This document shows, in pieces, positions 1 through 64,000 of a stretch of DNA of 64,000 bases. This stretch comes from an uncultured Flavobacteriaceae bacterium (lineage in GTDB: Bacteria > Bacteroidota > Bacteroidia > Flavobacteriales > Flavobacteriaceae). Below the pieces are notes generated by a model that was given only the letters and a program-made list of their open reading frames with translations, ran no database searches and was not told the origin of the DNA. Both the position numbers and the translations under genes were made by a program. The DNA lies in the NCBI GenBank assembly GCA_905182575.1, contig CAJJCA010000013.1, forward strand, positions 62,001 through 126,000. Direction: 5' to 3'. Numbering within the stretch: position 1 is the first letter of the stretch; every line of letters starts with the position of its first letter.

Positions 1-284
1 TGAGAGGCTGTGTAGATAAGTAGCAAAACGATTAAAGGCATCGCCAATATTGAAATCCCTTTAAAATATTGATAAGGAATTTTATGTATCGCAAACATCA
101 GCCCAAAACCAAACATCATGACGATAAAGTGTTTAAATAAATAGCCCCAAGGCGTTCCTTGCCCGACAACATATGCCAGGTTTGAGCTCGCACTGAATAC
201 TGGGAGAAATGAGAATATAGAAAGCAATGCCAAGGCACCCCAAAGTACTTTGTCTCCTAAAATGATATTGCCTTTATTACTCAT
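1..284 (-). CDS. ftsW: FtsW, SEDS peptidoglycan polymerase (5' part only)
   Basis: Reading the minus strand from ATG 284 gives about 94 residues that run off the window. They include a first membrane helix rich in L and A, the segment SFLPVFSASSNLAYVV, then HFIVMMFGFGLMF and HKIPYQYF. These match the N-terminus of FtsW, the SEDS-family glycosyltransferase that polymerises septal peptidoglycan with the class B PBP. It is the last visible gene of the dcw cluster and starts 12 bp after murD ends. Only two to three of about ten membrane helices are present here. The identification rests on this N-terminus and on the gene order murD-ftsW. Confidence 0.88.
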   Translation of the reverse strand, partial: MSNKGNIILGDKVLWGALALLSIFSFLPVFSASSNLAYVVGQGTPWGYLFKHFIVMMFGFGLMFAIHKIPYQYFKGISILAMPLIVLLLIYTAS

Positions 285-295
285 TTTATTTTTAA

Positions 296-1633
296 TTAAA
301 GGTTACGAACAGCTTCTTTAAACTGATCTCTTTTGTCTTTATAATTTTTAAATAAATCAAAACTCGCACAAGCCGGTGACAACAATACTTGATCGTCTTT
401 TTGTGCAATTTTATGAGCGATTTTAACGGCCTCACTCATCGATTGTGTTTCCACAATAATGTCTATCACTGGTCCAAAAACCTCAAGCAACTTGTGATTG
501 TCTATACCCAAGCAAATAATTCCTTTCACCTTCTCCCTAACCAAGGGCAACAAAGCTTCATAATCGTTTCCTTTATCAACTCCTCCAACAATCCAAACCG
601 TTGACGATTTCATACTTTCGAGCGCATAGAATACGGAATTTATATTGGTCGCCTTCGAGTCATTAATATAACTGATGTTTTGAATTTTAAGCACGGGCTC
701 TAAACGATGCGGCGCTCCTTTAAAGTTTAGCAAACTCTCTCGAATGGTCGCTTTACTAATCTGAAGTAGGCTTGCTATTGTGCTTGCAGCCATCGCGTTC
801 AACAAGTTATGTCTTCCGCTAAGTGGAAATTCTATTGTATTGATCATAGTTTTCTCTTTTTCTGTTTCTATAGTGATTTGATCACTTGTGTAATGTGTTT
901 TATTTAAACCCGAAGCCTCAAAACCAAAACCATGAAGTTTTGCCTCTGTAGGTGATTCTTTAACCACTGGTTTCAATATGGGGTCATCAGAATTGAATAT
1001 TAAAAAATCACGCTGTTTTTGATTTTTTGTAATCTTTAATTTTGATTTTAAATAATTATTAATGTCGTAGTTATATCGATCAAGATGATCAGGAGTGACG
1101 TTGGTTATTACTCCAATGTGAGGGGTGAATTCATGGATATCATCTAATTGAAAACTGCTGATCTCCAAAACGTAATATTCATGGTCATTTTCAGCGACTT
1201 CCCTGGCAAAGCTTTTGCCAATATTCCCTGCCAAACCAACATCAAAACCTGCCTCAATCAAAATATGGTATGTGAGAAGCGATGTGGTGGTTTTACCGTT
1301 GCTGCCCGTAATGCCAATTAATGTAGCTGAGGTGTATCTTGCCGCAAACTCTATTTCAGAGACTACTGGAATTTTAATTAATTTTAATTGACTTACAATT
1401 AAAGCATTTGACGGAATTCCGGGACTTTTCATAATCCAATTAGCATCTGACATTTTCGAAAAACTATGCATTCCTTCTTCCCAAACCACGTCTAATTCGT
1501 CAAAAGTCTTTTTGGCAGTTGCGTTAATAGCACCTTGGTCAGAAACAAAAACATCAAACCCTTGCTTTTTGGCAAGTATTGCTGTTCCGAGTCCGCTTTC
1601 TCCAGCACCCAAAATGACTATTTTTTCTTTCAT
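296..1633 (-). CDS. murD: UDP-N-acetylmuramoyl-L-alanine--D-glutamate ligase
   Basis: This 445-residue Mur ligase adds D-glutamate to UDP-MurNAc-L-Ala in the cytoplasm. An N-terminal Rossmann motif (LGAGESGLG, residues 8-16) binds UDP, the ATP P-loop GITGSNGKTT lies at 107-116, and the central domain has the HLDRY segment. The C-terminal domain carries NDSKATN and SPACASFDLFKNYKDRG-like signatures typical of MurD. The length is normal and the frame is intact. Its ATG overlaps the end of mraY by one base, consistent with co-transcription in the dcw cluster. Confidence 0.97.
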   Translation of the reverse strand: MKEKIVILGAGESGLGTAILAKKQGFDVFVSDQGAINATAKKTFDELDVVWEEGMHSFSKMSDANWIMKSPGIPSNALIVSQLKLIKIPVVSEIEFAARYTSATLIGITGSNGKTTTSLLTYHILIEAGFDVGLAGNIGKSFAREVAENDHEYYVLEISSFQLDDIHEFTPHIGVITNVTPDHLDRYNYDINNYLKSKLKITKNQKQRDFLIFNSDDPILKPVVKESPTEAKLHGFGFEASGLNKTHYTSDQITIETEKEKTMINTIEFPLSGRHNLLNAMAASTIASLLQISKATIRESLLNFKGAPHRLEPVLKIQNISYINDSKATNINSVFYALESMKSSTVWIVGGVDKGNDYEALLPLVREKVKGIICLGIDNHKLLEVFGPVIDIIVETQSMSEAVKIAHKIAQKDDQVLLSPACASFDLFKNYKDKRDQFKEAVRNL

Positions 1634-2856
1634 TATCTAATCTTAAGTGTTACGATTGATAGCACTGCAAGAAGAATTCCTATGATCCAAAACCGTGCAA
1701 CGATTTTACTTTCATGGTATCCTAACTTTTGATAATGGTGATGCAAAGGAGACATCTTGAAAATTCGTTTTCCTATGCCTGTTTTTTTCTTGGTATATTT
1801 AAAATAACCCACTTGCATTATCACCGATACATTTTCAATAAGAAAGATTCCACAAAGAAGTGGAATCAATAATTCTTTTCTAACAATTATTGCGATTACG
1901 GCGATGATGGCGCCAATGGTTAAACTCCCCGTATCTCCCATAAAAACAGAAGCTGGATAAGTATTGTACCACAAGAAGCCTATCAAAGAACCCATGAAGG
2001 CAGCAATAAAAACAACAACTTCTCCAACATTTGGGATGTACATAATATTAAGGTATTTTGAAAAAATAAGATTTCCTGATACCCATGCGAAAACCCCCAA
2101 GGCAATTACCATGATGGCGGAAGACCCTGCCGCAAGTCCGTCAATCCCATCGGTGAGATTTGCTCCATTCGAAACCGCAATAACGATGAAAACTACTATT
2201 GGAATAAAGATTATCCATGCATAAGTCGAAAGTTTTGGAGAAATCCAAGTAAGCAAATCTGCATAGTCAAATTCATTGCCCTTAAGCATTGGGATTGTGG
2301 TTAGTGTGGATTTTTTCTCAGCCGAAAACACTTCCTGAATGGCTGTTGTTGCAGTAATTTCAAATCCTACTATTTCTTGTTTAACGGTAACCGCTGGATG
2401 AAAATACAGTACTGACCCCACAAAAACGCCGAGCATTAATTGTCCAATTACTTTAAATTTACCTTTTAATCCTTCTTTGTCTTTTTTGAATATTTTTATA
2501 TAATCATCAATCAAGCCTATTGAACCCATTGTGATTGTTGTTACAATTAACAACTGAATGTAAATGTTGTCTAAACGAGCAAGAAGAAGCACCGGAATGA
2601 GTGTTCCCAAAATGATGATAATTCCCCCCATCGTTGGAGTGCCCGATTTTTCAGCTTGACCTTCTAAACCGAGATCTCTGATGGTCTCCCCTATTTGTTT
2701 CCTCCTTAAATAATTGATTATTTTTTTTCCATAAATTAAGGTGAAAACCAATGATAGTATGATTGCAATGGAAGCTCTAAACGACAAGAACTGAAACAGC
2801 GAAGCCCCTGGGAATTGAAATTGTTTTTCGATAAATTCAAATAAATAATACAACAT
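1633..2856 (-). CDS. mraY: Phospho-MurNAc-pentapeptide transferase
   Basis: This 407-residue integral membrane enzyme transfers phospho-MurNAc-pentapeptide to undecaprenyl phosphate, giving lipid I. About ten hydrophobic helices are visible. The catalytic signatures of the family are present: [25 protein letters not shown] and PLHHHYQK. As in other Bacteroidetes it is longer than the E. coli protein because of an insert (roughly residues 155-205) between early helices. The frame is uninterrupted. It lies between murE, 3 bp away, and murD, which it overlaps by one base. Confidence 0.97.
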
Positions 2857-2859: not shown

Positions 2860-4324
2860 TTACAATATTTTTGAAAACATTTCTTTTGCTACTTCATAAT
2901 CATCAAAAGGCAATCGATCACCTTTTATTTCCTGATAATTCTCGTGCCCCTTTCCTGCAATAAGAATTATATCACCAGGTGTTGAGAGCTGGCAAGCCAC
3001 TTTAATCGCTTCTTTTCTTTGCGTAATACTCATGGTTTTTTTATAATCCACTGGATCCACGCCGGCTTCTATCTGCTCAATGATTTCTTCAGGATTTTCA
3101 TCCCTAGGGTTGTCTGATGTAAAGATCACTTTTGAACTTAACCTTGCAGCAGTTGCCCCCATCTTAGGGCGCTTGTCCTGATCTCGATTCCCTCCACAAC
3201 CGACAACGGTATAAAGGTTTTCATTTCGAGTTCTAATTTTGTTTATGGTCACTAAAACGTTTTCCAGAGCATCTGGAGTATGGGCATAATCGACAATGAC
3301 CATTACCTGATTTGGCGCTTGATACGTTTGAAATCTTCCGGGTACGCTTTTCCAAAACACTGATCCCCCTCAAGGTGGAAAGTTCTTCCAGTTCGAGCAA
3401 TTTTGCAGTTGCAAAAACGGCCAATAGATTATATGCATTAAACTCCCCCAATAACTGGGTCCAAACTTCACTTTGATTAATTTTTAAAAGCATTCCCGTA
3501 AACTGGCTTTCCAAGACTTGTGCTTTGAAGTCCGCATTCTGATGTAACGCGTAAGCATATTTCTTTGCTTTACAGTTTTGAAGCATCACACTCCCATTTT
3601 TATCATCTATGTTGACCAAGGCGAAAGCTGATTTTGGAAGCTGATCAAACAATATTTTTTTAGTATCACGATAGTTTTTAAAAGTGTCATGGTAATCCAA
3701 ATGATCGTGGGTAAGGTTTGTGAAAATTGCTCCCTTAAACTCGAGTCCACTAATTCGTTTTTGATCAATACCATGAGAAGAAACCTCCATAAAACAATTC
3801 TTTACTCCCAGTTTTACCATTTCACTCAAACACTTGTTTATGGTGATAGCGTTTGTACTGAAAAAAGTCGCTGTTACATTTTCTTTACCATATTTTATTT
3901 ACAACCCGGTTGAAATTAATCCGGAAGGTTGATTTTCAGATTCAAAAAGCTCATAAAGTAAAGTGGCTACAGTTGTTTTACCGTTAGTTCCTGTAATCCC
4001 AATAAGGTTTAATTCTTCGGAAGGATTGTCATAAAAATTGGCAGCAATCAACCCTAAGGCTTCTTTTGTGTCTTTTACATGAATGTAAACAACTTCCTGT
4101 TGGATCTTTTCTGGCAATCTTTCACAAATGATGTATTTCGCACCAAGCCCAATAGCTTTGTCAATAAATTGATGACCGTCAATTTGAGTTCCACTAATTG
4201 CAACAAAAAGAGCGTCCTCAACAACTTTTCTTGAATCAAATGCGATCTCAGAGACAAGGCCTTCGGTAGTGCCTAATATCGCCTCAATAGCAACTTTATA
4301 CAATATTTCTTTTAGCTGTTTCAC
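2860..4324 (-). CDS. murE: UDP-MurNAc-tripeptide synthetase, frame-broken
   Basis: MurE adds the third amino acid of the stem peptide. The full span fits a protein of about 487 residues but is read in pieces: 4324-3899 (N-domain and P-loop GITGTNGKTT), then on to about 3365 (EVSSHGIDQ, THDHLDYH), then 3360-2860. The first two pieces share a frame but are separated by TAA at 3899-3901; local shifts on either side of it restore a normal STVVNKI-like sequence. The second break is a run of five C at 3365-3369 where four would keep the frame. DNPR near 3103-3114 is the motif known to select meso-diaminopimelate. I take the breaks to be sequence errors. Confidence 0.93.
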
Positions 4325-6309
4325 GATAACTCTATTGTTATTTTTTGATTTTCCTTAACCCTTGTCCCCGCATTTAAAGATTGTTTTTTGACTTTACCTG
4401 AACCTTTAATTTGAACTTCAAGCCCCATACTTTCAAGTATAAAAAGTGCCTCCCGAACAGTTAAACCTTTCAAATTAGGAATCTGATTATGTGTTAATTC
4501 AACTGAAGCTATTTTGGATTCCAAAGCATTAATCTGGTTGAAATTAAGCTCTGTGGTTATTGGTGTAGCGGTATAAATCTTTTTTGCGATTTTCTTAAAC
4601 ACTGGGGCAGCGACTGTAGAACCATAGTAGCCTAAGCTCTTGTCAGGCCTATGAATGACAACAATACAGGAATACTTGGGCGCTTCTGCTGGAAAATACC
4701 CTACAAAACTGGAAACATACTGCGTCTCTTCTTTAGTGTAATCGACTTGACAGGTTCCGGTTTTTCCAGCCATAGTAAAAACGTCTTATCCTTGATTGCA
4801 TGCGCTGTCCCCCATTTTTTATCAACCACATTGAACATCATTTTCTGAACCTGATCAACTGTAGACTGGGAGCATATCGAAGGATTTAAAATTTCTTTTC
4901 CAAAAATTTGTTGGGGTGCATTTCCAATGGTACTGATCTTATCGATAAATCTTGGCTTTAACATCACGCCATTATTGGCAACTGCATTGTAAAAAGTTAA
5001 AGTCTGAAGCGGAGTTATCGCTACCCCGTATCCGTAGGCCATCCAAGGCAAATCCAATCCACTCCCAGCCAGCGTCAGTAGGATAGGGAATCTTAGGCAT
5101 TGCTTCTCCGCGTATTGAAAGTCCTAAGTGGCTTATGTAAACCCATATTGTAGAGTCGATCTACAAATTTCTGAGGGTTTTTCTTATAGTTGTCATAAAT
5201 AATCTTTACCAAACCAGTATTTGAGGAAACTTCAAAAGCTTTGGAAACTGGGAGTTCCATAACCTCCTTTTTTAGAATCTCGCACTTTATATTTACCAAA
5301 AAATGTGAGTATTCCATTTCCAGTTGAAATAGGTGTATTTACATCAACAACCTTGTCTTCTAGTGCAGCAATCATTGCCATTAGTTTAAAAGTAGAACCA
5401 GGCTCATGAGCCTCCCCAATCGCATAATTTAACTTCTCATAATAGGTTCCTTTGGAGGTTCTGCCAAGGTTGGCAATCGCCTTCACCTTTCCAGTTTTGG
5501 TTTCCATAACTACAACACAACCATGATCAGGCTTTAAACTTTTCTAACTGCTCTAAAAGTGCTGTATGGGCAATGTCTTGAATATTTACATTAATGGTGG
5601 TGTGAATGTCAAAACCCTCAGTAGGCTCTTTCTCATTGTTATCATTAATAGGCTTCCACTGTCCGCCTGCAATTTTTTGTTTTAACCGCCTCCCTCCTTC
5701 TCCTTTTAAATACTGACCGAAAGCACCCTCTAAACCAACACGAAGAAAACGACCATCTGTATCTCTTATTTCGTAACCTATTGTGCGTTCAGCGACTCTG
5801 CCCAATGGATGCTCTCTGATGATTTGCTGCTCAACAATCAACCCTCCTTTATAGGATGGTAAATTGAATAGAGGTAATGATTTAAGTTTTTGAAGTTTGG
5901 AATAAGTCAATCCTTTTCCAATAAGTAAATATCTATTTTTATTTCTCTTAGCCCTTTCAAGTCTTAATAAAAACTGTTCTTGTGTCAAATCTAAAACTGT
6001 TGCGAGTCCTTTTGAAAGCGCTACTTTATTCGCATTGAAAGCAGTCTTTGATGGAACCGCCGCATCCCATCGGATTTCGTAACGCGCCACTGAGGTGGCA
6101 AGTATGCTTCCATCGTCTGCATAAATATTACCTCTACTGGGCTGTAACTCGACATTCTTTACGGTGCGACTGGATGCTAATTCTCGGTATTTTTCACCTT
6201 GAAAAAACTGTAAGTGAATCAACTTACCCACAAGGAGAAACGAAAATAAAATTAACGAAAGCCCCACCAAGTAGGTTCTATTCATTATTTTTTTCTTCCG
6301 ATTTTCCAT
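4321..6309 (-). CDS. ftsI: FtsI/PBP2-type septal transpeptidase with PASTA tail, frame-broken
   Basis: This class B penicillin-binding protein cross-links septal peptidoglycan. A single N-terminal membrane anchor (residues about 13-33) is followed by the dimerisation domain. The transpeptidase domain has all three motifs: STFK near 5385-5396, SSN near 5219-5227 and KTGT near 4753-4764. A PASTA domain closes the protein. The reading frame changes four times (about 5515, 5275, 5075 and 4750), giving five fragments of a protein of about 660 residues. The catalytic residues all survive, so indel errors are likelier than gene loss. It overlaps murE by 4 bp and lies 4 bp from ftsL. Confidence 0.93.
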
Positions 6310-6625: not shown

Positions 6626-7524
6626 GTTTTCTCTGCTATTCTGAGCTTCCCACTTCTGGCCCTATTATTCTCTTTTATTTCTTCTTTAGTAATATCTTTT
6701 AATTTCCCGACTTTTTTCAACGGAAGCGTTCTATTTCCATAAAAATCAACCGCTGCCGTACCTTCAAACTTACCTTCCCTAATGAATCGTTTTACCAATC
6801 TGTCCTCAAGAGAATGATAGGAAATACAAACCAATCTTCCTTCAACTGATAATATTTCAGCCGTTTGAAGCAAGAATGCTTTGATCACGTCGAGTTCTCC
6901 ATTGACCTCAATTCTAATGGCCTGAAAAACCTGAGCCATTACTTTATGGATGACATGCTTAGGAAGTGCAGGCGCAAACAAATCGACCAATTGTTGGGTC
7001 TTACTGAATTTTTTCAAATTGCGCGCTTCGATGATTTGGTCAGCAAGCTTAGCAGCATTTCTTAACTCTCCATAATCACTTAAAATCCTGATCAACTGTT
7101 CTTCACTGTAATGATTCACGACATGTGCGGCATCGATTGTTCCTTCTGTGTTCATTCGCATGTCCAACGGTCCTTCAAAACGAGTAGAAAAACCTCTTTC
7201 GCCGGTATCGAACTGATGTGAGGAAACTCCAAAATCTGCCAATATTCCAGAAACAGATAAGATCCCGTAAAATTTCAAATGCTGTTTTAGATGTGAAAAG
7301 TTGCCTTTGATTAATTTAAATCGTTCGTCAACAATATTATTTTTAATCGCCTCTGCATCCTGATCAAAAGCAAATAACGTTCCCGATTCGGAAAGTTGAT
7401 CGAGAATCGCTCTTGAGTGACCTCCCCCTCCGAAAGTTACGTCGACATAAACCCCATCAGGATCAATGTTTAATCCCTGAGTCGCTTCTTCAAGCATTAC
7501 TGGCTTATGATAAATTGTCTTCAT
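6622..7524 (-). CDS. rsmH: 16S rRNA (cytosine1402-N4)-methyltransferase
   Basis: This 300-residue SAM-dependent methyltransferase modifies C1402 of 16S rRNA. The start KPVMLEEA, the SAM loop VDVTFGGGGHSRAIL (about residues 27-41), the segment ADFGVSSHQFD, ERGFSTR and the C-terminal ISYHSLEDRLVKRF are all RsmH signatures. The frame is intact and the length normal. Its start overlaps the end of mraZ by about 20 bp, the usual order at the head of the dcw cluster. Confidence 0.97.
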   Translation of the reverse strand: MKTIYHKPVMLEEATQGLNIDPDGVYVDVTFGGGGHSRAILDQLSESGTLFAFDQDAEAIKNNIVDERFKLIKGNFSHLKQHLKFYGILSVSGILADFGVSSHQFDTGERGFSTRFEGPLDMRMNTEGTIDAAHVVNHYSEEQLIRILSDYGELRNAAKLADQIIEARNLKKFSKTQQLVDLFAPALPKHVIHKVMAQVFQAIRIEVNGELDVIKAFLLQTAEILSVEGRLVCISYHSLEDRLVKRFIREGKFEGTAAVDFYGNRTLPLKKVGKLKDITKEEIKENNRARSGKLRIAEKT

Positions 7525-7973
7525 TTTGATCTCCCATAACTTCCTCTGCTAATGCAGCGAAATCCATAGTGGCTTCATCTATTGCTTTTTCATATTGGTC
7601 TTTACCCCATATTTCAAGGATATTAACAGCAGAGGAAACGACTACTTGTTTTGATATATTGGCATGTTTTATTAAATCCTTAGGAATCAACAACCGACCA
7701 GTTGCATCGACTTCAACCAGCTTTACACCAGCTGTAAATCGCCTGATAAAGTCATTGTTTTTTTTGTTGAATCTATTTAAACTATTTACCTTCTCCATCA
7801 AGCTCTCCCATTGATCCAACGGATAGAATTCAAGACAATTGTTAAATACTGCCCGCTTGAGAACAAAGCTTTTCTGTAGACTCGCAGATAGTTGTTTTTT
7901 TAACGCAGCAGGGAGCATTATCCGACCTTTAACGTCAGCCTTTACATTCGTATGTCCCTATAAAATGTTGCAT
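7505..7973 (-). CDS. mraZ: MraZ transcriptional regulator, frameshift near N-terminus
   Basis: MraZ is the AbrB-fold DNA-binding regulator of the dcw cluster. The long open frame starts only at MLPAALKK, but upstream on the minus strand an ATG at 7973 reads MQHFIGTYECK and then, after removing one base in the CCTTT stretch at 7939-7943, joins ADVKGRIMLPAALKK. This restores the first SpoVT-AbrB half; the second (VDATGRLLIPKDL) is in the intact part. The repaired length of about 155 residues is normal for MraZ. It is the first gene of the cluster and is preceded by its likely own operator. Confidence 0.93.
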
Positions 7974-9531: not shown

Positions 9532-9866
9532 TTTCCTTTTTTAATTTCAAGCTTTTCTGCAAAATACTCACTAAAATCTTTCATCGTAGCGGCCATTTTT
9601 TCATCCTGAGTTGCTCTAAGATATGTTTCACTCATGGTAACTAAACTTTGATGAAAAAACATTTTCATTTGATCTACAGTCGTCTCTTTAATCCACAAAT
9701 CCATTCTTAAGGTTTCTTGCTTCTCCCCGTCCCAAATTGACAAAAGCATAGCTTGAGCATTTTCATTATTGACACCGCCATCGGGTGCAGACCATTTTAT
9801 TTTTTCTGGAATTTTATTTTCATCTAAAGTGATTTCAATGGATATTGGACTTACTTTCTTAGACAT
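9528..9866 (-). CDS. gldC: Gliding motility protein GldC
   Basis: This soluble protein of 112 residues matches the GldC family of Bacteroidetes. Recognisable segments are ISIEITLDENKIPEKIKW, LSIWDGEKQETLRMDLW and the C-terminal AEKLEIKKG. GldC is needed for full gliding, and its gene usually follows gldB. Here the start codon abuts the gldB stop (shared base 9866). The biochemical role of the family is not well defined. Confidence 0.93.
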   Translation of the reverse strand: MSKKVSPISIEITLDENKIPEKIKWSAPDGGVNNENAQAMLLSIWDGEKQETLRMDLWIKETTVDQMKMFFHQSLVTMSETYLRATQDEKMAATMKDFSEYFAEKLEIKKGN

Positions 9867-10848
9867 TATCTTCGTGGTTTATAATTGGATTTATTAAAAA
9901 TAGTTTGTGCAGGTAGAGAGAGTAGTTTATTGATTTCGACTTTAGGGTTGTTTTCTATGTAGGACTTTACGATTTGCCAGCCCAGCCATTTTCCTATTCC
10001 TCCCGGAGATTCGTTGTCTATCTCCAAATAAAACTTTGAAAATGGAGCAGGATCAATAAAACGTTGAATCAGCGCTGGATCTGAACTATATATCAATTGT
10101 TTTTCAATAAAAAATTGCCACATGTATAACTCATTGCTTCTAACCCATTCCTCTTGATCAATGGTGTATCCAATCTTGATGGCATTCGTTTTATTGGGAA
10201 TAAGTAAATCTTTTAAATACAATTTTTTACCATAAAAGATCATCTGAGACAAGAGCGTGCGATCTTCGGGAGGATTGACTTTATAATCAGAAAACTTATC
10301 TATCACATGAGCAGTCAAGTATTGTGCATCCATTTCCTGCTTTACATAGTTTGAAATCCCTTGATAAAGGTAGTGATCAGCACCAAAATAGGTGTCTAAG
10401 GAAATTAAAAGCAACGAATCGGTATAAATTGTTTTGCTTTGATAATCGACATTGTTAACCAATCCAATCACTTTAGGAATTTTGGTTTTGGGAAAATAAT
10501 GTTTTATGTGTTTAAATAAATACTCCAACTCTTCTTCCAAAGGAACCATAGAAGGAAAAACCTCGTCAACAGTATCCACGAGCATCAGCTGCAAGGTGTC
10601 TTTTTGACGATTTACCCAGACACTGTCCGCAAATACTTTAGGAAATAAATAAGGGTAAGCCTGTTTTAGGGCAGGAATTGCATCCGAAGAAGCCCGATGA
10701 AACTTAAGGTCAAATCGATCAATGTTAATTGTCATTGGAATTGAAAGGATTTGAGATTCTAATGAATTTTCTGCTCCACACACATTTAAAAACACAATTG
10801 AAAACCCAAAAGGGAAATATTCTTAATTCTTATAACAATCAGCCTCAT
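9866..10848 (-). CDS. gldB: Gliding motility lipoprotein GldB, frameshift in signal peptide
   Basis: The open frame begins with a GTG near 10795 and lacks a signal peptide. An ATG at 10848 reads MRLIVIRIKNISLLGF and, after one base is removed near 10795-10805, joins IVFLNVCGAENS. This gives a basic start, a hydrophobic core and a Cys at about residue 21, as expected for the GldB lipoprotein. The mature part (IDRFDLKFHRA, GADHYLY, GIGKWLGWQIVKSY) is typical GldB, a predicted metalloprotease-like fold of unknown activity in the gliding apparatus. It pairs with gldC and diverges from nadE, the usual flavobacterial arrangement. Confidence 0.92.
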
Positions 10849-11698: not shown

Positions 11699-12360
11699 TT
11701 GAAAAAATTAAAAATCTTAATTATTGATAGTAGCCCAATTATTAATATTGGGTTTAAATCTATTTTTAAAAACTCTGTATCAAATTCTTTTTGAACGGTT
11801 GTAATTTTGTAAATTTTGTTAAATGCATAGAAAACATTGAGCAGGCTATCGAAACAGTCAACAATCATTACATTGACATCTTAATTACTGAAATGTTATT
11901 AAATGATGAAAGTCCAATCAACTTAATCGCTCAAGCCAAAAAAAGTTGTCCAGAAATTGAAATTGTTATTTATACTTCACATGATAAAAATATTTACAGC
12001 ATTCCTCAATTAAAGGCAGGCACTATTGGGTTCTTATCTAAAAATATAGAAGCTTGTGTTTTGGCTGAAGCACTCTCTAAAATTCACAACCACAAACTCT
12101 ACATAACCAACAACTTTAACAATCAATTAAACTTAGAAATTGATTTAGAAAGACCTAGAAATAGTTTCGGAAAGTTATCTACAAGGGAAATTGAAGTACT
12201 CAAATATTTAACCGACGGAAAAAGAAACATCGAAATAGCGCAACAGCTCAAAATCAATCAAAAGACAGTAAATACCTATAAAAAATAGGATGATAGAAAG
12301 CTTCAGGTGAATAATATTTTTGATTTATATTTGCAAACTAAAAACATGAACATCGTCTAA
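11699..12360 (+). CDS. NarL/LuxR-type response regulator, frame-broken
   Basis: A REC-HTH regulator. Starting at TTG 11699, directly after the nadE stop, it reads LKKLKILIIDSSPIINIGFKSI (receiver start), then needs one more T in the T5 run at 11788-11792. The middle gives DILITEMLL and VIYTSHDK; the usual phosphoacceptor Asp is not obvious in ILITEMLL, where T or E occupies its place. The LuxR helix-turn-helix follows (LSTREIEVLKYL, QKTVNTYK). Near the end, A6 at 12280-12285 should be A5 and A3 at 12297-12299 should be A4, after which KLQVNNIFDLYLQTKN completes the domain. No histidine kinase lies nearby. The regulator's target is unknown. Confidence 0.82.
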
Positions 12361-14313
12361 AGAACTCGGTTTAATTTTTTCGTTACGTCATTTCTTAGTT
12401 CTGAAAAAACTTGATGAAGATCCTCTAAAACTTCTTTATTGAGTGCATTTAACTTGGTAGGTCTATCAATTCTTTTATTTTTTGATCGACTAAATACCTT
12501 CTTAATGATAAAATAGTTTCATTGACCAATTGACCAACTTGGGTATAGCTTTTTTACGAAGATATTTTTCTTCTCCCAATCATGAAGATAATATTGCTCG
12601 CCTTTCATCACCAAATCAGCAACCATTTCATTGAGAATCATATCATCAGTTTGCATTATTTTTTCAAGATTGAGTTGCCCTTCTTCCAACTGATAAGACT
12701 CTATTAATTTATAAAATAAGTTTTTAAATGTAGTATTGGATTAATTCGATTTCATCTTGCTGAAGATCTAAAAAAACTTTTTCATAAACCTTTGCAGAAA
12801 TGGTTCTAGTGTCTTCAATCAACTCACCACTTTCATCAGATCTTATAATGGTTTCGTTGAATTCTGCTTCATGGCCTCCATAGTGCAACAAAATAGATAT
12901 GATTTGTTTTTCCAACTCATAAGAATGATCCACTTTTAAAGAAGCATCAGCTGTTTTCTTGACCAACGATACGTTTTCATTAGGCACCAAACGTGTTGCC
13001 CCCTTCTGATTATTCTTTTGTTTTAATTGAGCCAATGCACCAAAAAGAGTATCTTCAGAAACCTCCATGATCTCAGAGCAGCTCTGTATGTAAATCTCCT
13101 GCTTAATCATGTCAGGGATTTTAGAGATACTTTCGATGATTTCCCTTACCGTCTCTGCCTTACGTATAGGATCAGATTTTGCTTCGCCTTGCAATAAAGA
13201 AGCTTTAAATTGAATAAAGTCTTTAGATTCTTCCTCAAGGAAGGAAGTGATTTCTTCTGAAGTATGTGACTTTGCAAAACTATCAGGATCTTCACCTTCA
13301 GGAAAAGCGCAAACCTTAACGTTCATTCCCTGTTCAAGAATAAGATCAATTCCTCTCAGTGAGGCACGAAGTCCTGCTGCATCACCGTCAAAAAGAACAA
13401 CAATATTGGACGTGAGCCTACTTATCATCCTGATTTGATCGGTGGTCAAAGCAGTTCCGGAGGAAGAAACAACATTTAAAACTCCAGATTGATGTAAAGA
13501 AATAACATCAGTATACCCCTCTACAAGATAACAAACATCTTGTTTTGCAATTGCTTGTTTAGATTCATAGATTCCATAAAGCACCTTGCTTTTATAATAA
13601 ATCTCACTTTCCGGTGAATTGAGGTATTTGGCTGTTTTGGCATTCGTGGTCAGTATTCTTCCTCCAAAACCTTGAATTCGTCCAGACATACTGCGAATCG
13701 GAAAAATTATTCTTCCGCGAAAAAAATCATTTGTCGATTTTCATTGACAATTACCAATCCTGTTTTTTCTAAAAACTCTAATTTATAACCCTCTTTTTGT
13801 GCTTCTTTGGCAAGGGCACTATATTCATCAGGTGAATATCCTAAAGCGAATTTTTTTATGGTTTCCTCGGTAAATCCTATCTGGTTTCACCATTCCTAAT
13901 GCAATAGATTTACCCAATTCGGTTTCCCATAAATTTTTCTCGAAAAATGATCCCGCATATTGAGCAACCAAAAACAAACTCTCTTTCGCATCTTGAATCA
14001 ACTTGGCTTCTTCCGTCTGAACAGTTTCTTCAATCTCAATATTGTATTTTTTTGCTAAAAAGCGAATGGCTTCAGGGTAAGTAAAGTGCTCGTGCTCCAT
14101 AAGGAAAGCAACAACATTTCCCCCTTTACCACTACTGAAGTCTTTCCAAATTTGCTTTACAGGAGAGACCATAAAACTTGGTGTTCTTTCTTGAGAAAAA
14201 GGACTTAATCCTTTAAAATTTGCACCAGACTTTTTAAGTGTTACAAATTCACCAATAACCTCCTCTAATCGAGCAGTTTCGTATACTTGGTCAATGGTGC
14301 TTTTTGAAATCAA
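12357..14313 (-). CDS. dnaG: DNA primase, frame-broken
   Basis: DnaG makes RNA primers for replication. The N-terminal domain (NFKGLSPFSQERTPSF, about residues 33-48; GNVVAFLMEHE) is the CHC2-type domain, but the usual zinc ligands are replaced (GLSPFS where many primases have GLCPFH). The TOPRIM core is intact (EGYTDVISLHQ, VVLFDGDAAGLRA). The frame changes near 13690-13870, again at 12724 and twice more near 12540 and 12450; repaired, the C-terminal helicase-binding part ends at TAG 12357-12359. The total of about 650 residues is normal. Its stop overlaps the convergent regulator gene by 4 bp. Confidence 0.93.
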
Positions 14314-15408: not shown

Positions 15409-16467
15409 CTAAGAACTAAGTCCTTCTGTTTTGTTGGCAAGTTGACCACAGGCTGCATCGATGTCTTTCCCTCGCGAACGTCTAATCGTTGCAGTAATCC
15501 TAACCCGTTCTAGTGCTTTCTGATATTTCTCAACCTGAGAAATATCCGCCTGTTTAAAAGTGTCATCCCCAATGGGATTGTATTCAATAAGATTCACCTT
15601 GCAAGGGACGTGCATACAGAATTTAACCAAAGCATCAATATCCTCCTGCTTGTCATTGATGTCCTTCCACACCACATATTCATAAGTCACCAAACTAGAG
15701 GTGGCATCAAACCAATATTTTAGAGAATCGACTAAATCAGTCAGGGGAAATTTTTCAGCAAAAGGCATCAATTGCTCTCGTACCTCTTGACGGGCACTAT
15801 GAAGTGAAACTGCTAATCCAAACTTAACATTCTCATCAGCCAGCTTCATTATCATTTTAGGAATTCCTGAAGTTGAGATCGTGATCCGACTGGGAGACAT
15901 CCCCAACCCATCAGGTTGGGTGATTTTAGCAATCGAACCCATTAAGTGTTTGTAATTCATTAAGGGCTCGCCCATCCCCATAAAAACAATATTGCTTAGG
16001 TGGCGATCAAAATAGTATCGGCCATACCGATCCATCGCAACGACCTGGTCATAGATTTCATCAACATTGAGGTTTCGCATCCTTTTGATACTTGCGGTGG
16101 CACAAAACTTACAGTCTAAACTACATCCTACTTGAGAAGAAACACAAGCTGTAGTTCGAGTTGCAGTAGGAATTAAAACAGACTCAACAATTAGATTATC
16201 AAAAAGCTTTACAGCATTTTTGAGGGTCCCATCTTTACTTTTTTGTTGGCGATCTATCGCAATGTTGTTAATAACAAAATGCTCCTCTAAAAGAGATCTG
16301 GTTTCGATGGAAAGGTTTGTCATTCCCTCAAAGTTGTGAATACCTTTTTGCCACAACCATTGGTATAACTGATTGCCTCTGAAAGCCTTGTCATTATTGT
16401 TGACAAAAAAATCTCTCAGATCCTCTAGTGATAGGGCGCGAATATCTTTTTTCCTAACTGTTTCCAT
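15409..16467 (-). CDS. rlmN: 23S rRNA/tRNA adenine-C2 methyltransferase
   Basis: This 352-residue radical-SAM enzyme methylates A2503 of 23S rRNA and A37 of some tRNAs. The cluster motif CSLDCKFCATA is present, as are the N-terminal QWLWQKG region, GMGEPLMNY, ISTSGIP and SLHSARQEVREQLMPF. The two reactive Cys of the family fit the CSSQ/CSLD region and the C-terminal AACGQL. Frame and length are normal. It starts 56 bp downstream of the queA stop, so co-transcription is plausible. Confidence 0.97.
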   Translation of the reverse strand: METVRKKDIRALSLEDLRDFFVNNNDKAFRGNQLYQWLWQKGIHNFEGMTNLSIETRSLLEEHFVINNIAIDRQQKSKDGTLKNAVKLFDNLIVESVLIPTATRTTACVSSQVGCSLDCKFCATASIKRMRNLNVDEIYDQVVAMDRYGRYYFDRHLSNIVFMGMGEPLMNYKHLMGSIAKITQPDGLGMSPSRITISTSGIPKMIMKLADENVKFGLAVSLHSARQEVREQLMPFAEKFPLTDLVDSLKYWFDATSSLVTYEYVVWKDINDKQEDIDALVKFCMHVPCKVNLIEYNPIGDDTFKQADISQVEKYQKALERVRITATIRRSRGKDIDAACGQLANKTEGLSS

Positions 16468-16523: not shown

Positions 16524-17574
16524 CTATATAATTAGCATGGCATCGCCGTATGAGTAAAAGTTATATTTTTTCTTAATGGCTTCGGTGTAAGCTTCTTTTA
16601 TAAAATCAACATCAGCAAATGCAGAAACCATCATCAATAAAGTAGATTTTGGCGTGTGAAAATTAGAAATCATACAATTTGCAATTGAAAAATCATGCGG
16701 TGGAAAAATAAATCTATGGGTCCAGCCTTCATAAGGGTTAAGTGTACCCATAGAGGAAACAGATGACTCTAATCCTCTCATAACAGTAGTTCCAACTGCA
16801 CAAATTCTTTTTTTATTCTTAAGAGCGCTGTTTACCATATCAGCAGAATCTTGTTTAATAATCAATTCCTCAGAATCCATCTTATGCTTTGAAAGATCCT
16901 CAACCTCAACAGGACTGAAGGTTCCAAGTCCAACATGTAAAGTAATTTCTGCCAAATCAACACCTTTAATTTGAAGTTTTTTAATCAAATGTTTTGAGAA
17001 ATGAAGACCTGCTGTAGGTGCTGCAACAGCTCCTTCATTTTTTGCGTAAATCGTTTGATATCGTTCTTCATCTTCAGACTCAATAGGTCTAGAAACAATA
17101 TTCTCGCAAGGGTGTTTGTCCAAGTTGTTTAAGTTTTGATCTAAACTCACTGTAAGATCCGTCATATAGAAACCTTAAGGTTCTTCCACGTGATGTAGTA
17201 TTGTCTATGACTTCAGCCACTAAACTGTCGTCTTCTCCAAAATAAAGTTTATTTCCAATTCTTATTTTTCTGGCCGGATCAACAAGAACATCCCATAGCC
17301 TTTGTTCTTCGTTTAATTCTCTCAACAAAAAAACCTCTATTCTTGCTCCTGTTTTTTCTTTGTTACCAAACAAACGTGCAGGAAAAACTTTTGTGTTGTT
17401 TAAAACCATCAAATCTCCTTCATCAAAATAATCAATGACATCCTTAAACGTTTGGTGTTTTATTGTTTTCTCAGCTCTGTTCAAAACCATCAACCTGGAT
17501 TCATCTCTTCCGGGCGAAGGTCGTTGAGCAAGTAAAATATTGGGTAATTCGAAATTAAAGTCAGATAGTTTCAT
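16524..17574 (-). CDS. queA: tRNA preQ1(34) S-adenosylmethionine ribosyltransferase-isomerase, frame-broken
   Basis: QueA transfers the ribosyl group of SAM to preQ1 in tRNA, making epoxyqueuosine. The start ATG 17574 ([12 protein letters not shown]) is chosen because an exact -7 box lies 18 bp upstream and family members begin this way. The N-part has [17 protein letters not shown] and [11 protein letters not shown], the C-part [24 protein letters not shown] and [14 protein letters not shown]. One base too many at AA 17097-17098 splits them; removing it gives REYVSRPIES across the join. The repaired length of about 350 residues is normal. Confidence 0.95.
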
Positions 17575-17592
17575 GTAATTTTTTTTGCGTTG

Positions 17593-17625
17593 CAAATATA
17601 CTTCTCCGAAGGGGGGCTTGTCAAG
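17593..17625 (-). promoter_or_regulatory. queA promoter
   Basis: On the minus strand TATATTTG (17593-17600) matches TAnnTTTG exactly, and CTTG at 17622-17625 lies 21 bp upstream in the -33 position. The box is 18 bp ahead of ATG 17574, supporting that start over the longer TTG frame. Confidence 0.6.
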
Positions 17626-17647: not shown

Positions 17648-18874
17648 CTAATTCATATCATACTGAAAATCAATGCTTTTAAAGTCCTCCCAAAATCCTG
17701 GATAAGATTTTGAAACAACCTCAGAATTGTTAATCACGATTGGAACTTTTATGCCCAATGGAGCAAAAGCCATTGCCATTCGGTGGTCGTTATAGGTATC
17801 AATAGAAATATTTTGATTGATTACACCAGAAAATCTCAATTCAAGACTGTCATTTGTTATTGAAATTATAGCTCCCAATTTTTCAAGTTCAATCTTAAGG
17901 GCTTCTAAGACGGTCTGTCTCTTTTATTTTTAGAGTATGAAGTCCTGTCAAATTACAATCAACGCCAAGTCCAAAACAACTCACCGCAATTGTTTGCGCG
18001 AGGTCAGGAGTATTTCTAAGATCTAAATCTAGCACTTCGGGAAGTGCAAAACTGGAGTTTTAGAAAGGGTTATCGAACCATTGTTAAAAACAGTCGTTAC
18101 GCCTATTTTTTTATAAATCTGAACCAAATCCGAATCTCCTTGTAAGCTCTCAGAATAGTAGCTTTCTAAAGTAATTTCACTTTTATTTGCAATCGCAACT
18201 ACTGAATAGAAATAAGAAGCAGAACTCCAATCTGACTCAACAGTCCATTGATTTAATGTAATTTTGTCCTCAGGACTAATCTTTATTTTATTATTATTAA
18301 AAAAGGTTTTAAAACCCAAATTATCTAAAAGAGTTTGAGTCATTTTAATATAGGGGATGGAAGTGGTTTCCCCTATCAAATCAATTTCAAGACCATTTTT
18401 TAAGGAGGGAGCAATTAACATCAAGGCCGAGATGTATTGACTACTGATGTTTGCTGGCAAAGATACTTGGCTGACGTCTATTTTTTTGCCAGTGATTTTT
18501 AAAGGAGGGAATCCCTTTTTATTAACGTATTCAATTTCTGCTCCCAGAGACCGCAAGGCCTCCACTAATAATTCAACGGGACGGTCTTGCATTCTCGAAG
18601 AGCCTGTCAAAACAACTTTAGAATTAGGCTTAACTGAAAAAAAGGCTGTTAAAAAACGCATTGCAGTTCCAGCATGATGAATGTCCACAATAGATTCGTT
18701 ATTCTTCAATGCCTTCTGTGTCACCTGAGTATCATCAGAATTCGACAAATTACTTATTTCTAAATCCGGATACAGTGCCTTTAAGATCAAAAGCCTATTG
18801 GATTCACTTTTCGAACCAGTTACCGTTATTGACCCAAAACAGTTCTTAGATTTATGATCGAGTTTAAGGTTCAT
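17648..18874 (-). CDS. aroA: 3-phosphoshikimate 1-carboxyvinyltransferase, frame-broken
   Basis: EPSP synthase of the shikimate pathway, about 408 residues. The N-part shows [43 protein letters not shown] and the [13 protein letters not shown] segment. The C-part has [12 protein letters not shown], the classic DHRMAM signature. The 150 bp between the two long frames code for [17 protein letters not shown] and [12 protein letters not shown] once a shift near 18030 and one surplus base near 17916 are corrected. Active-site residues are therefore all present, and I treat the gene as intact in the organism. Confidence 0.94.
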
Positions 18875-19215: not shown

Positions 19216-19283
19216 AATGTGCAAATTTAAAACTTTCAAACTTGGGTTAAAAATTAATTCAATTAAATTATTGAGCGCAATTC

Positions 19284-19974: not shown

Positions 19975-20079
19975 AATTAAAACAAAAGTAATTAATAATT
20001 TTATCTCACTTGATAAGCCCTATACTAATCAAATGAAATATTCATAAATGATGATTTTTTTTAAAAACAATTTCAATTT

Positions 20080-22181: not shown

Positions 22182-22183
22182 TT

Positions 22184-24077: not shown

Positions 24078-24083
24078 CTGTTT

Positions 24084-26380: not shown

Positions 26381-26392
26381 AAAAAAATAATA

Positions 26393-38276: not shown

Positions 38277-38277
38277 T

Positions 38278-42559: not shown

Positions 42560-42589
42560 AAAGGCATCCTCTGAGATGCCTTTTTTTTT
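42560..42589 (+). terminator. Rho-independent terminator after gldJ
   Basis: A perfect stem AAGGCATC/GATGCCTT with loop CTCTGA is followed by nine T (42581-42589). It is 12 bp after the gldJ stop and ends 4 bp before the murF start, so murF probably needs its own promoter or read-through. Confidence 0.85.
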
Positions 42590-42592
42590 GAT

Positions 42593-43880: not shown

Positions 43881-45783
43881 TTATTCTAATCCAGCACCTT
43901 TAATAATCTCTTGAACAATCTCAGGATTTAATAACGTAGAAGTATCGCCTAAACTTGATACATCTTTACTTGCTACTTTTCTTAAAATACGACGCATTAT
44001 TTTTCCAGATCTTGTTTTGGGAAGACCAGGAGAAAAATTGTATTGTTCGGGTTTTGCAATAGGACCGATTATCTTTCTCACCATGGCTTTAATTTCACTT
44101 TCCATCTCAGCATTAGATTTTGTCGAAGAATTGCAAATTGCATAAGCGTAAATTCCTTGCCCTTTTATCGGATGGGGAAATCCTACTACTGCGGACTCGA
44201 CAACTTCGGGGTGTTCATTTATCGCATTTTCCACTTCTGCAGTACCCATTCTATGACCAGAAACATTGATCACATCATCAACTCTACCTAATATTCTTAA
44301 ATAACCATCATGATCTCGTTTTACACCATCACCAGTAAAATACATTCCTTTATATGTAGAAAAATAGGTCTCTTTACAACGGTTGTGGTCCCCATAGGTT
44401 GTTCTTATTATTGAAGGCCATGGGAATCTTATACACAGATTTCCTTCCACATTGTTCCCTAAAAGCTCATTTCCTTCAGCATCGACAATTACTGGCTGAA
44501 CTCCAGGTAAAGGTAATGAGGCGTGCGCCGGTTTATTTGGAGTAATTCCTGCCAGTGGTGAGATCATTATTCCACCCGTTTCGGTTTGCCACCACGTATC
44601 TACTAATGGACATCTTCCTTTTCCAATATTTTCGTGATACCAGTGCCAAGCTTCCTCATTTATCGGCTCCCCTACTGAACCAATTACCTTAAGTGAATCT
44701 AAATTGTATTTTTCTATTGGCTCAAGACCGAAGACTTGAAGGGCGCGAATGGCAGTAGGTGCGGTATAAAATTGATTGACTTTATATTTATCAATAATCT
44801 CCCAAAAACGTCCAGGATTAGGGTAGGTAGGAACGCCTTCAAACATTAAAGTAGTTGCACCAGCCAAAAGTGGTCCGTAAACAATATAAGAATGTCCAGT
44901 AATCCAACCAACATCGGCTGTACACCAATAAACATCTGATTCTTCATGCTGAAAAACATTTATAAAAGAATAATAAGTATAAACCATATAACCTGCAATT
45001 GAATGAACAACGCCTTTGGGCTGTCCGGTTGAACCAGAGGTGTAAAGAATAAACAACATGTCTTCGGCATCCATTTCTTCAGCCTCATTATCAGAAGACT
45101 GTCCAGCAATTGAATCACTCCACCAGATGTCTCGCCCTGTTTTCATATCAACAGACTCCCCCGTTCTCTTAAGAACGATAACTTTTTCAATGGTCGTTGT
45201 TTTTTCCAAAGCCTCGTCAACAACTGCCTTCACAGGAATCTGTTTACTCCCTCGGAAATTTCCCATCAGAAGTAAGCACCATTTTCGCTTGACAATCATT
45301 GATTCTGTCTGCCAATGCCGAAGATGAAAATCCAGCAAAAACTACAGAATGTACTGCTCCGATTCTGGCACAGGCCAACATGGCAATAGCGGCTTCAGGA
45401 ACCATCGGCATGTAAATAATTACACGATCTCCTTTTCGTACACCATTTGCACGCATCGCATTCGCAAACTTACAAGTAGCTTCAAAAAGCTCAGCATAAG
45501 TAAGACTCACAGAATCAGAATTCGGGTCGTTTGGCTCCCACAATATGGCTGTTTTATCAGCATGCGTTGGGAGTAGTCTCTCAAAAATATTTTCTGTTAA
45601 GTTTAATTTCGAATCTTTGAACCACTCCATTTTAGGTTCTTCAAAATTCCAATCTAATACTTTGCTCCATGGTTTTCTCCAACGAAAATCTTCAGCAATT
45701 TCTCCCCAAAAAGCCTCAGGATTGGAAATGCTATTTTCGTATTTTGCTGTATACTCGAAAAGACTTGATATTTTATGATTCAT
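43881..45783 (-). CDS. acs: Acetyl-CoA synthetase, frame-broken
   Basis: AMP-forming acetate activation, about 634 residues. The first part has EAFWGEIAEDFRWRKPW, LNLTENIFER and the ACARIGAVHSVVFAGFSSSAL segment. A frame change near 45265-45300 leads to the P-loop YTSGSTGQPKGV, DTWWQTETGG, FTGDGVKRDHDGYLRILGRVDDVINVSGHRMG and the C-terminal regulatory lysine PKTRSGKIMRR, the usual acetylation site. All motifs are complete. Confidence 0.96.
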
Positions 45784-60771: not shown

Positions 60772-60800
60772 TTTGATTAATTTGAAATACAATACCTTTG
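60772..60800 (+). promoter_or_regulatory. ddl promoter
   Basis: TTTG at 60772-60775 and TACCTTTG at 60793-60800 are 17 bp apart, matching the Bacteroidetes -33/-7 pair, 15 bp before ATG 60816. It rules out the longer frame that starts at 60798 inside the -7 box. Confidence 0.65.
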
Positions 60801-60815
60801 TTTAAAAGTGTTTTT

Positions 60816-61803
60816 ATGGGTAAAAAGGTTGTTGGGATTGCCATGGGAGGGTACTCTTCCGAAAGAGAAATTTCTCTAAATAGCGGTAATACGGTCAATA
60901 AAACCCTTTCAAATGAAAGCTGGGTTTGCTATAGGATCGTAATAAGTTCGGACAACTGGATTGTTTTAGACAGTCAAAACAACAGTTATCCACTTTCGAT
61001 GGGTGATTTTACTTTTTTAATTGATAACAAAATCATTTTTTTTGATAAAATTTTCAATGCAATTCATGGAATTCCTGGAGAAAACGGCCAATTGGCGGCA
61101 CTTTTAGAGTTATTAAACATCCCGCACACCAGCTGTGACAGCTACACAGCAGGACTCACATTTAACAAAAGAGACTGCCTTGATGTGGCAAAAAAATGGG
61201 GGATTCCAGCGGCAAAATCAGTTTCATTTGACAAAGGTGACATTATAGATCTTGACTTAATAAAGAGGCAAGTTGGATTTCCTTGTTTTGTAAAACCAAA
61301 TCGTTCTGGCAGTAGTTTTGGAATTGTTAAAGTAAACCGTAGAGAAGATTTTGAAAATGCATTAGACACCGCCTTTTTAGAAGACAGGCAATTAATTGTT
61401 GAATCTGCTTTGGTCGGAAGAGAAGTTTCTGTAGGAGTTTTCTCAATGGGCGAAAGAAATAATTGTTCTTCCAATAACCGAAATAACTACTGATAATGAA
61501 TTTTTTGACTATGAAGCTAAGTATGAAGGAAAATCGGAAGAAATCACTCCGGCTCAGATTCCTCAAAAATGGTCAGATGAAATAATTCGAATGTCCAAAA
61601 GACTTTATCTAAAAATGGAGCTATCGGGTGTATGCAGAAGTGAATTCATTATCGTTGACGAAGTACCGCATCTTCTGGAAATCAACACAATCCCAGGATT
61701 AACGGAGGCCAGTATAATTCCACAACAACTAGAAGCAGCAGGACTAGGGCTTAACCACTTGTTCGAGGCAATGCTAAACAACGCTTTAGAAAAAAACGTT
61801 TAA
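60816..61803 (+). CDS. ddl: D-alanine--D-alanine ligase, frame-broken
   Basis: The ATP-grasp ligase that makes D-Ala-D-Ala, about 328 residues. [48 protein letters not shown] and the grasp Glu/Lys region lie before a shift near 61455. After it come [29 protein letters not shown] and [19 protein letters not shown]. All catalytic blocks are present. It leads a probable ddl-coaD transcript, with coaD 10 bp downstream. Confidence 0.95.
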
Positions 61804-61813
61804 ATTTGTATTT

Positions 61814-62267
61814 ATGAAACGTGCAATTTTCCCAGGTTCTTTTGATCCAATCACTCTAGGTCACTATGATCTTATCAAAAGAAGTATTCCTTTGTTTGAC
61901 GAAATAGTTATTGCTGTTGGAACAAATTCGGAAAAAAAATACATGTTCTCTTTAAAGACAAGAATGGATTTTATCGAGGAAGACATTCGAAGGACACAAT
62001 TCACTGGTTATAAGGAACTACGATGGATTGACGATAGATTTTTGCAATAAGTGTAATGCTGATTTTATCATCAGAGGGTTGCGAAATCCAGCTGATTTTG
62101 AATTTGAAAAAGCAATTGCCCATACGAACAGGAAGCTTTCTGGGATTGAAACAATTTTTCTTTTGACTTCAGCTAACACTTCCTACATAAGCAGCAGTAT
62201 CGTGAGAGAGATCATTTCAAACAAAGGAGACTACAGACTCCTTGTCCCTGACGCTGTTAGTATTTAA
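61814..62267 (+). CDS. coaD: Phosphopantetheine adenylyltransferase, frame-broken
   Basis: CoaD makes dephospho-CoA. [18 protein letters not shown] carries the TxGH nucleotidyltransferase motif, and after a shift near 62015 the second frame has [34 protein letters not shown] and the C-terminal ISSSIVREI. About 151 residues, the normal length. It follows ddl on the same strand and converges with the NUDIX gene. Confidence 0.95.
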
Positions 62268-62278
62268 TCCATAAGGGC

Positions 62279-62876
62279 TTATAAAATTTCTTTAACTAGT
62301 ATTTTTATATTTTCATAAGCATTTTCCATTAACTCCGGAATAGCTTCCTTAGATTTCCATACCGCCTGATTTATTCCTTCTTCAACTTGAGGTATCAGCT
62401 TACCCTCAAAGGAAGTCGTCATCAAATACCAATAGGTTTTCTTTAACTTGTAAGAACCATTTCTCTTAAACAAATGGAACGTAGTAGGAAGTGGTTTTTT
62501 GACTATCAAATCCTTTACCCCTGTTTCCTCGATCACTTCTCTTAAGGCGCCATCGATAATCAATTCCTTTTTCTCAATCTTTCCTTTGGGGAGGTCCCAC
62601 TGATCATTTCTGTAGATAAATAAAATTTTTCCATCATGATGCTCAACAAGTCCACCGGCTGCTTCTATCTCAGGAAAGTGCTTTTTAAAATGTTTCCAAA
62701 GCTTTTTTTCCTTCGGGTGGTAAAGGTATAATCCCTTGACTTTTTTAGACTTCAAAGCAGTTATTATCAATTCTTTATTTGTGTATTTTAAGAAAAGAAA
62801 GGGAGTGGAGTCGTCAGTATCATCTTATTTTTGTGATTAAAACAATTAACTTTTTATTAAAAAAAACTTTATACAT
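62279..62876 (-). CDS. NUDIX hydrolase, frameshift near N-terminus
   Basis: A NUDIX protein of about 198 residues. The box GKIEKKELIIDGALREVIEETGV (length within the family pattern GX5EX7REUXEEXGU) is intact. The open frame begins at a TTG, but upstream ATG 62876 reads MYKVFFNKKLIVLITKI and, after removal of one base at 62825-62826, joins DDTDDSTPFLFLKYTNKE, giving the N-terminal extension usual for this flavobacterial group. The substrate is unknown. It diverges from pyrE with 6 bp between the start codons. Confidence 0.88.
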
Positions 62877-62882
62877 TTGTTT

Positions 62883-63526
62883 ATGATTTATGACCAAACA
62901 ACGGCTCAGTTAACGGCCAATTGCTTTTGCAAATTAATGCAATTAAATTGAATCCAAAAAATCCTTTTCAATGGGCAAGCGGATGGAATTCTCCTATCTA
63001 TTGTGACAACCGAATTGCACTGTCTTTTCCGGAAGTAAGAAATTTTCTTGCCGAAAAATTAGCCGATCAAGTAAGATCGCTCTACGGGGAAGGAAACGTT
63101 ATTGCAGGAGTAGCGACTGGTGCAATCGGAATCGGAATGTTGGTTGCTCAACGCTTAGACGCTCCTTTCATTTATGTCAGACCTGAAGCGAAATCACATG
63201 GTCGACAAAATCAAATTGAAGGAAATTTAGAAAAAGGACAATCAGTTGTTGTCATAGAAGATTTAATTTCAACCGGAAAAAGCAGTCTTAATGCCGTTAG
63301 AGCGTTAAGAAATTCAAATGCTGAAGTCAAAGGGATGGTGGCGTTGTTCACTTATGGTTTTGTTGTTGCTTCTGATAATTTTGCAGCTGAAGAAGTGAAG
63401 CTTCATACGCTTTGTGACTATGATCATTTATTGGAAGCTGGAGTGGCTTCAAACTACGTTGATAAAAATGATTTGGAATTGCTAAGGTCGTGGAAAAAAG
63501 ATCCTGCCAATTGGAGTCCTGCTTAA
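62883..63526 (+). CDS. pyrE: Orotate phosphoribosyltransferase, frame-broken
   Basis: PyrE makes OMP in pyrimidine synthesis. ATG 62883 gives MIYDQTTAQLTA and, after adding one base near 62925, ELLLQINAIKLNPKNPFQWASG. The PRPP motif is VVVIEDLISTGKSSLN, and CDNRIALSFPEVR and YVRPEAKSHGRQNQIEG are typical. About 214 residues. Its stop overlaps the convergent birA end by 4 bp. Confidence 0.95.
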
Positions 63527-64000
63527 TAAAGCAATTTCAAGGAACCGCCTGAAAAGTATTCAACCGTTCCATTTTCTTTTTCAATTTTAATTTTTCCTTT
63601 CGAATTAACCCCTTTTATCTTTCCTTTAAATTTTGAATCTGTATGCTCAAAAACCACCCATTGGTCCTTCATGTAAAGGTTTGCTTGATACTGATTGATT
63701 AATTCGATTTTATTTTCAGATTTACATTGTTCAAAAAAATCATTAAACTTTTCTAAAATCCTTTTTAAAAGTTTATCTAAGTCGTGTTCTTTTTGAGTAA
63801 GCATTAAAATTGAACTTGCTTTAGGGAATAAATCAAAATTATCTTGATTCACATTTAACCCTACTCCTAGGATTGTTCCCGAAAACCGGTCACCCCTGAC
63901 AAAATTCTCTATTAAAACTCCTCCAATCTTTTTATTACCTGACAAAATGTCGTTTGGCCATTTTAAACTTAAATCCGGAATATTAATTTCTTTCAAAGCC
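63523..64000 (-). CDS. birA: Biotin--[acetyl-CoA-carboxylase] ligase (C-terminal part)
   Basis: About 159 residues of a BirA/BPL enzyme cut by the right edge. LSLKWPNDILSGNKKIGGVLIEN is the biotin-binding segment, GVGLNVNQD follows, and the C-terminal SH3-like cap contains KGKIKGVNSKGKIKIEKENG. The GRGRRGRxW motif lies outside the window. No N-terminal DNA-binding domain can be judged. Confidence 0.9.
   Translation of the reverse strand, partial: ALKEINIPDLSLKWPNDILSGNKKIGGVLIENFVRGDRFSGTILGVGLNVNQDNFDLFPKASSILMLTQKEHDLDKLLKRILEKFNDFFEQCKSENKIELINQYQANLYMKDQWVVFEHTDSKFKGKIKGVNSKGKIKIEKENGTVEYFSGGSLKLLY

Follow-up and report, generated by a model that had tools for sequence, protein, structure and literature searches.

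Frame breaks in a 64-kb stretch of an uncultured Flavobacteriaceae assembly very probably reflect short bursts of sequence error rather than gene decay

Uncorrected indels that interrupt open reading frames (ORFs) have been described for long-read metagenome assemblies. In one such description they are common in the majority of its genomes with <10x short-read coverage, as judged, following the IDEEL idea, from how ORF lengths compare with those in a reference database (PMC9426551). Kastor, as presented, detects frame breaks against reference genes (PMC12007338). The 64,000-bp stretch of DNA analysed here (hereafter, the window) shares with the first case ORFs that are interrupted by uncorrected indels, but differs from that case as described in that its indels are not concentrated in homopolymers and are accompanied by clustered substitutions. 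Our analysis resembles Kastor in detecting breaks against reference genes; in contrast to the published outline of that method, the references here are two uncultured relatives, the second of which polarises the changes.

We consider it very likely that the frame breaks arose as errors in the assembly, whose consensus has retained short bursts of raw-read noise. Each burst would cover ~12 bp and would comprise several random substitutions, often together with the gain or loss of one base, adding up to about one frame change for every kb of coding DNA. The cell's own genes would almost certainly be intact. The source may be an under-corrected, low-coverage long-read metagenome assembly, with both platform and coverage inferred from the errors themselves: short mixed bursts and an excess of insertions point to raw long-read noise that thin coverage failed to remove.

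The window comprises bases 62001-126000 of contig C13 in an assembly of 1.97 Mb and 29 contigs (G000). Among 80 RlmN-related loci, mostly from Flavobacteriaceae or Flavobacteriales and nearly all metagenome-assembled, the nearest by RlmN identity belong to two uncultured relatives, G004 (95%) and G012 (93%). Both genomes are syntenic with the window across most of its length. Nucleotide identity to the window is ~94% for G004 and 88.5-91.5% for G012, except for 82.7% at 47470-48621. The gene set consisted of G004 ORFs of at least 80 aa with an alignment coverage of at least 80%, aligned with stiff gap costs while the reading frame was tracked along the window. The comparison left out 46.6-51.1 kb, which is without a G004 counterpart, the unaligned stretch 11561-11779, and ORFs <80 aa. 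For naming, 40 of the 57 genes were scanned against NCBIfam, where 6 remained unmatched at the chosen E-value, and one more against Pfam. The labels ftsI, aroA, response regulator and rhodanese reflect matches under curated cut-offs. For the gene in the ftsI place, penicillin-binding protein families match, none at a curated cut-off, and the name follows gene order and the original prediction; the coaD-like gene matched only the general family PF01467.

Between the window and G004 we found 56 frame-changing events in 29 of 57 genes (53.7 kb), or ~1 per kb: 30 are +1, 14 are -1 and 12 have other lengths. Against G012 there were 49 events in 23 of 45 genes. As a control, G012 ORFs were compared with G004, a more divergent pair (88.5-93% identical) than the window and G004; this gave only four events in 2 of 46 genes, whose ORFs are 92 and 149 aa long. 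The excess of shifted genes in the window is significant (Fisher p = 9e-8). Alignment to close relatives, which had been suggested as a check on the breaks, thus finds the orthologues unshifted. These totals depend on the alignment, since looser gap costs gave 78 frame-changing gaps in 31 genes. Polarity was assigned with G012, which agrees with G004 at 45 of the 56 events and so marks them as the window's own. At 39416 and 57591 G012 has the window's state, making these events G004's own. Eight events (3345, 12287, 12300, 12459, 61454, 61983, 62826 and 62927) have no adjacent G012 sequence, and the polarity of a +10 event at 37394 is ambiguous. Shifts are spread unevenly over the window, at 1 to 8 per 4-kb bin, except for 0 in 48-52 kb, a bin almost wholly outside the comparison. 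Table 1 lists the affected genes and, in its last row, an unaffected run.

Table 1. Genes of the window with frame changes relative to G004, and the longest run of genes without any.
Feature	Coordinates	Strand	Observation
murE	2860..4324	-	One shift at ~3345, unpolarised; the assembly's best match, split into two pieces
Penicillin-binding protein, ftsI place	4321..6309	-	Five frame changes
mraZ	7505..7973	-	Shift near 7938
gldB	9866..10848	-	One shift near 10801
Response regulator gene	11780..12360	+	Shifts near 12287 and 12300, unpolarised; possibly one burst
dnaG	12357..14313	-	Five frame changes; the assembly's only above-cut-off match, with internal stops
queA	16524..17595	-	One shift near 17097
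aroA-like gene	17648..18874	-	Two shifts; TIGR01356 at 284.6 bits, slightly under the cut-off of 287.25
YjjG-family nucleotidase gene	19281..20004	-	Two frame changes
radC-family gene	20080..20769	-	Two frame changes
purK	24748..25901	+	One shift near 25107
purE, running into peptidase gene	25903..28414	+	Two shifts in purE
Rhodanese-like gene	28411..28759	-	One shift near 28553; family matches below cut-offs
gcvP	29729..32577	+	Single +2 change near 30647
Pyruvate dehydrogenase E2 and E1-alpha genes	36678..39278	-	Both shifted
porV and gldJ	39371..42548	- and +, respectively	Three and five frame changes, respectively; 39416 in porV is G004's own
murF	42576..43877	+	One shift near 43366
acs	43881..45783	-	Clear shift near 45258; pair 44028/44042, maybe one burst
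ddl, coaD-like gene, unnamed gene, pyrE	60798..63526		One shift per gene, all unpolarised
Mur-ligase-like gene, unnamed gene, obg, adk	20817..24659	-	Longest shift-free run of compared genes

The original prediction, made from the window alone, had put the number of broken genes at about 28, which is the number that remains once G004's own event at 57591 is dropped; 6 of the 28 (murE, the response regulator gene and the four genes at 60798-63526) are without any polarised event. All nine genes that it called split (murE, ftsI, dnaG, murF, ddl, coaD, gcvP, acs and pyrE) are shifted relative to G004, and none of the five that it called unshifted (murD, mraY, rlmN, obg and adk) has a shift. Its junctions were placed well in six of eight cases, within ~3 bp of our calls (7939, 12280, 12297, 17097, 28555 and 62825); that at 3365 lies ~20 bp from the shift called at 3345, and that at 11788 is 12 bp away from a -1 that is present only under looser gap costs. 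Its further statement that one base restores the family sequence at each junction worked out is wrong in detail, since a single base frequently makes up just part of the difference, which includes many substitutions in short bursts too. The event pairs 12287/12300 and 44028/44042 are gapless in the alignments used for polarity, and each pair may represent a burst of substitutions instead of two shifts that compensate one another.

Substitutions seen only in the window are concentrated around the shifts (the 56 positions used here and in the burst and homopolymer analyses include G004's two own events). Up to 5 bp from a shift they occupy 15.5% of three-way columns, a share that drops to 10.4% at 5-10 bp, to 6.3% at 10-15 bp and to 2.5% at 15-20 bp, reaching a background of 1.4-2.1% beyond 20 bp. 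Substitutions seen only in G004 stand at 2.9% within 5 bp of shifts and at 2.6-5.3% throughout. We delimited 57 bursts, with a median length of 12 bp. The window has 49 groups of at least four substitutions of its own, against a mean of 2.1 and a maximum of 7 in 200 shuffles, a null that disregards natural clustering. The burst rule counted frame-changing indels for the window and substitutions only for G004, and the fair comparison is therefore 49 such groups in the window versus 21 in G004. Since G004 itself has 21, some bursts in the window may have a natural origin.

The substitutions inside bursts do not look like those of evolving genes. Random change is expected to give about one third transitions. 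Inside the 57 bursts, coding substitutions fall on the three codon positions as 87:61:97, with 37% transitions; outside them the figures are 126:72:387 and 66%, and for G004's own changes 225:135:927 and 67%. Changes in bursts thus occur as noise would, regardless of codon position and without the usual bias towards transitions. Outside bursts, with background reached by 20 bp, selection looks near normal from these ratios. The share of third positions there is 66% versus 72% for G004, a gap that would fit stray errors or mild differences remaining. Bases that differ at distances of up to 20 bp from shifts go from 50% to 35% G+C, and at the shifts single-base insertions are about twice as frequent as single-base deletions. 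It is very improbable, in our judgement, that the bursts are real, produced by a mutational process of this lineage that overwrites stretches of ~12 bp with random sequence of higher A+T content, with many of these lesions present in the population sampled, perhaps as dead or dying cells.

Noise of this kind would not be confined to shifted genes. rlmN (so named in the original prediction), whose frame is intact, has two clusters of window-only substitutions at 15997..16029 on the minus strand, which could be partly natural. In an alignment with 18 relatives, the window's RlmN departs at 3 of 155 residues that are invariant elsewhere, one of them inside a cluster; the test is weak, as the nearest two relatives depart at 0 and 1 residues and three distant ones at 4-6.

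Breaks affect half of the compared genes, as they might after mass pseudogenisation in a decaying lineage such as a new symbiont, and a reduced genome would likewise look incomplete. Nonetheless, we regard pseudogenisation as very unlikely. rpoB, dnaG and murE are indispensable. All three are broken, rpoB (on contig C10) into three pieces in three frames, and a search of the assembly, which is possibly incomplete, found no intact second copy of any of them; essential genes have not been spared. Moreover, codon-position and transition bias are near normal outside bursts, so whole genes are not relaxed. Other contigs are affected too. Gene-by-gene comparison with the corresponding G004 regions shows shifts in 12 of 20 cases at L104 on contig C4, a count based on two overlapping G004 loci in which some genes are possibly counted twice, and in 3 of 8 at L105 on contig C5; both counts are unpolarised. 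L101 (contig C1, 1-20000), for which there is no relative for comparison, has long intact ORFs with a mean of 365 aa and, in contrast to the window, looks clean, which is a point against the error reading. This region encodes SusD-like and TonB-receptor-like proteins, an amylase, a sulfatase, a GH65 protein and a LacI regulator, mostly without a G004 counterpart, and looks like a polysaccharide-use locus. Error rather than decay is indicated by the fact that essential genes are hit, that the damage is local and random, and that it extends to other contigs. The view that these are sequence errors and not mass pseudogenisation, already put forward from the window alone, is therefore upheld by essential genes that are broken, relatives that are intact and a noise-like spectrum near the breaks.

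The expectation that the indels would concentrate in homopolymers, which is the pattern of homopolymer-type long-read indel error, did not hold for the single-base indels at the window's shifts. Only 2 of 15 single-base deletions lie in runs of at least 3, versus 26% expected at random, and 14 of 30 single-base insertions adjoin the same base, versus 44% expected. The window therefore lacks a common signature of long reads, which counts against the error reading. No 4-6-mer is enriched after correction at 87 error centres (best corrected value 1.3). We therefore rejected a homopolymer or motif origin of the shifts, and our data support short bursts of mixed error, rather than single-base homopolymer slips, as the mechanism.

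The same observations bear on three explanations in which the changes are real. Bursts as short and dense as these could arise by template switching or copying from elsewhere. However, k-mer copies near 50 bursts, with donors within 60-300 bp, are about as frequent as expected: 3 versus 2.1 for 9-mers within 150 bp, 2 versus 2.0 for 10-mers within 300 bp and 6 versus 3.6 for 8-mers within 60 bp. With no clear excess, local template copying was rejected as the burst source. Such bursts would presumably also be lethal in essential genes, and we judge real local mutation even less probable than pseudogenisation. Less probable again is a hypermutating lineage, such as one that lacks mismatch repair, whose real indels would be numerous and found on several contigs, as they are here. 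Mismatch-repair loss is expected to yield homopolymer slips and transitions. Neither homopolymer indels nor an excess of transitions is seen at the shifts and bursts. The assembly also has a nearly full-length mutS match (862 bits, positions 12-839 of 840, with one internal stop), and mismatch-repair loss was rejected on this ground. Programmed frameshifting at conserved slippery sites, the least probable explanation of all, would account for coding sequence that remains alignable to relatives on both sides of the shifts. It is contradicted by the mixture of +1, -1, +2, -2 and longer shifts, by the lack of a shared 4-6-mer at the 87 centres, and by G012, which is unshifted along with G004 at 45 of 48 readable events. 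Retained read noise accounts for the breaks far better, and hence the shifts carry no new biology.

Two copies of the 16S gene are identical across 1,530 bases. This indicates an uneven distribution of error, though the identity could also be due to selection or to pooled reads, and it does not discriminate between the explanations. The 16S identity, the groups in G004, the third-position share and the weak RlmN test are counter-points, but none of the supporting results is outweighed by them. The completeness score of the window's genome (70.7% at 1.97 Mb), which may be another consequence of the errors and may be too low, by itself says little: G004 scores 99% at 2.2 Mb and G012 scores 69% at 1.4 Mb.

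What does this mean for use of the assembly? Gene losses, fusions and pathway gaps taken from it are untrustworthy, a caution on data quality. For example, an ORF of 816 aa at 25964-28414 joins purE to a peptidase gene, which we take to be of the M3 type, where G012 has separate ORFs of 161 and 673 aa. By this comparison, the joined ORF is a false fusion, an artefact of the shifts in purE, and such fusions may sit in annotated databases. As part of the noise consists of substitutions that do not disturb the frame, repair of frames would not correct every protein, and genes with intact frames can be affected.

The stretch at 46300-51100 is a low-G+C island beside a tRNA gene (46300-46374). It is absent from G004, which has ~354 bp in its place, and is different in G012. 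Between small minus-strand ORFs in the island lie copies of a dispersed direct repeat that measures up to 86 bp (46505, 48640, 49275 and 50996), and from this layout the island looks like a cassette-style array. Within it, a 51-bp tandem repeat at 47394-48432 encodes 17 residues, among which SNTTG recurs, and the protein concerned is split over two ORFs; a Pfam scan of one of the two gave no match, and the protein seems to start like a secreted one. Further copies of the dispersed repeat are found elsewhere in the same genome (L102 and L103) and in G012 (L098).
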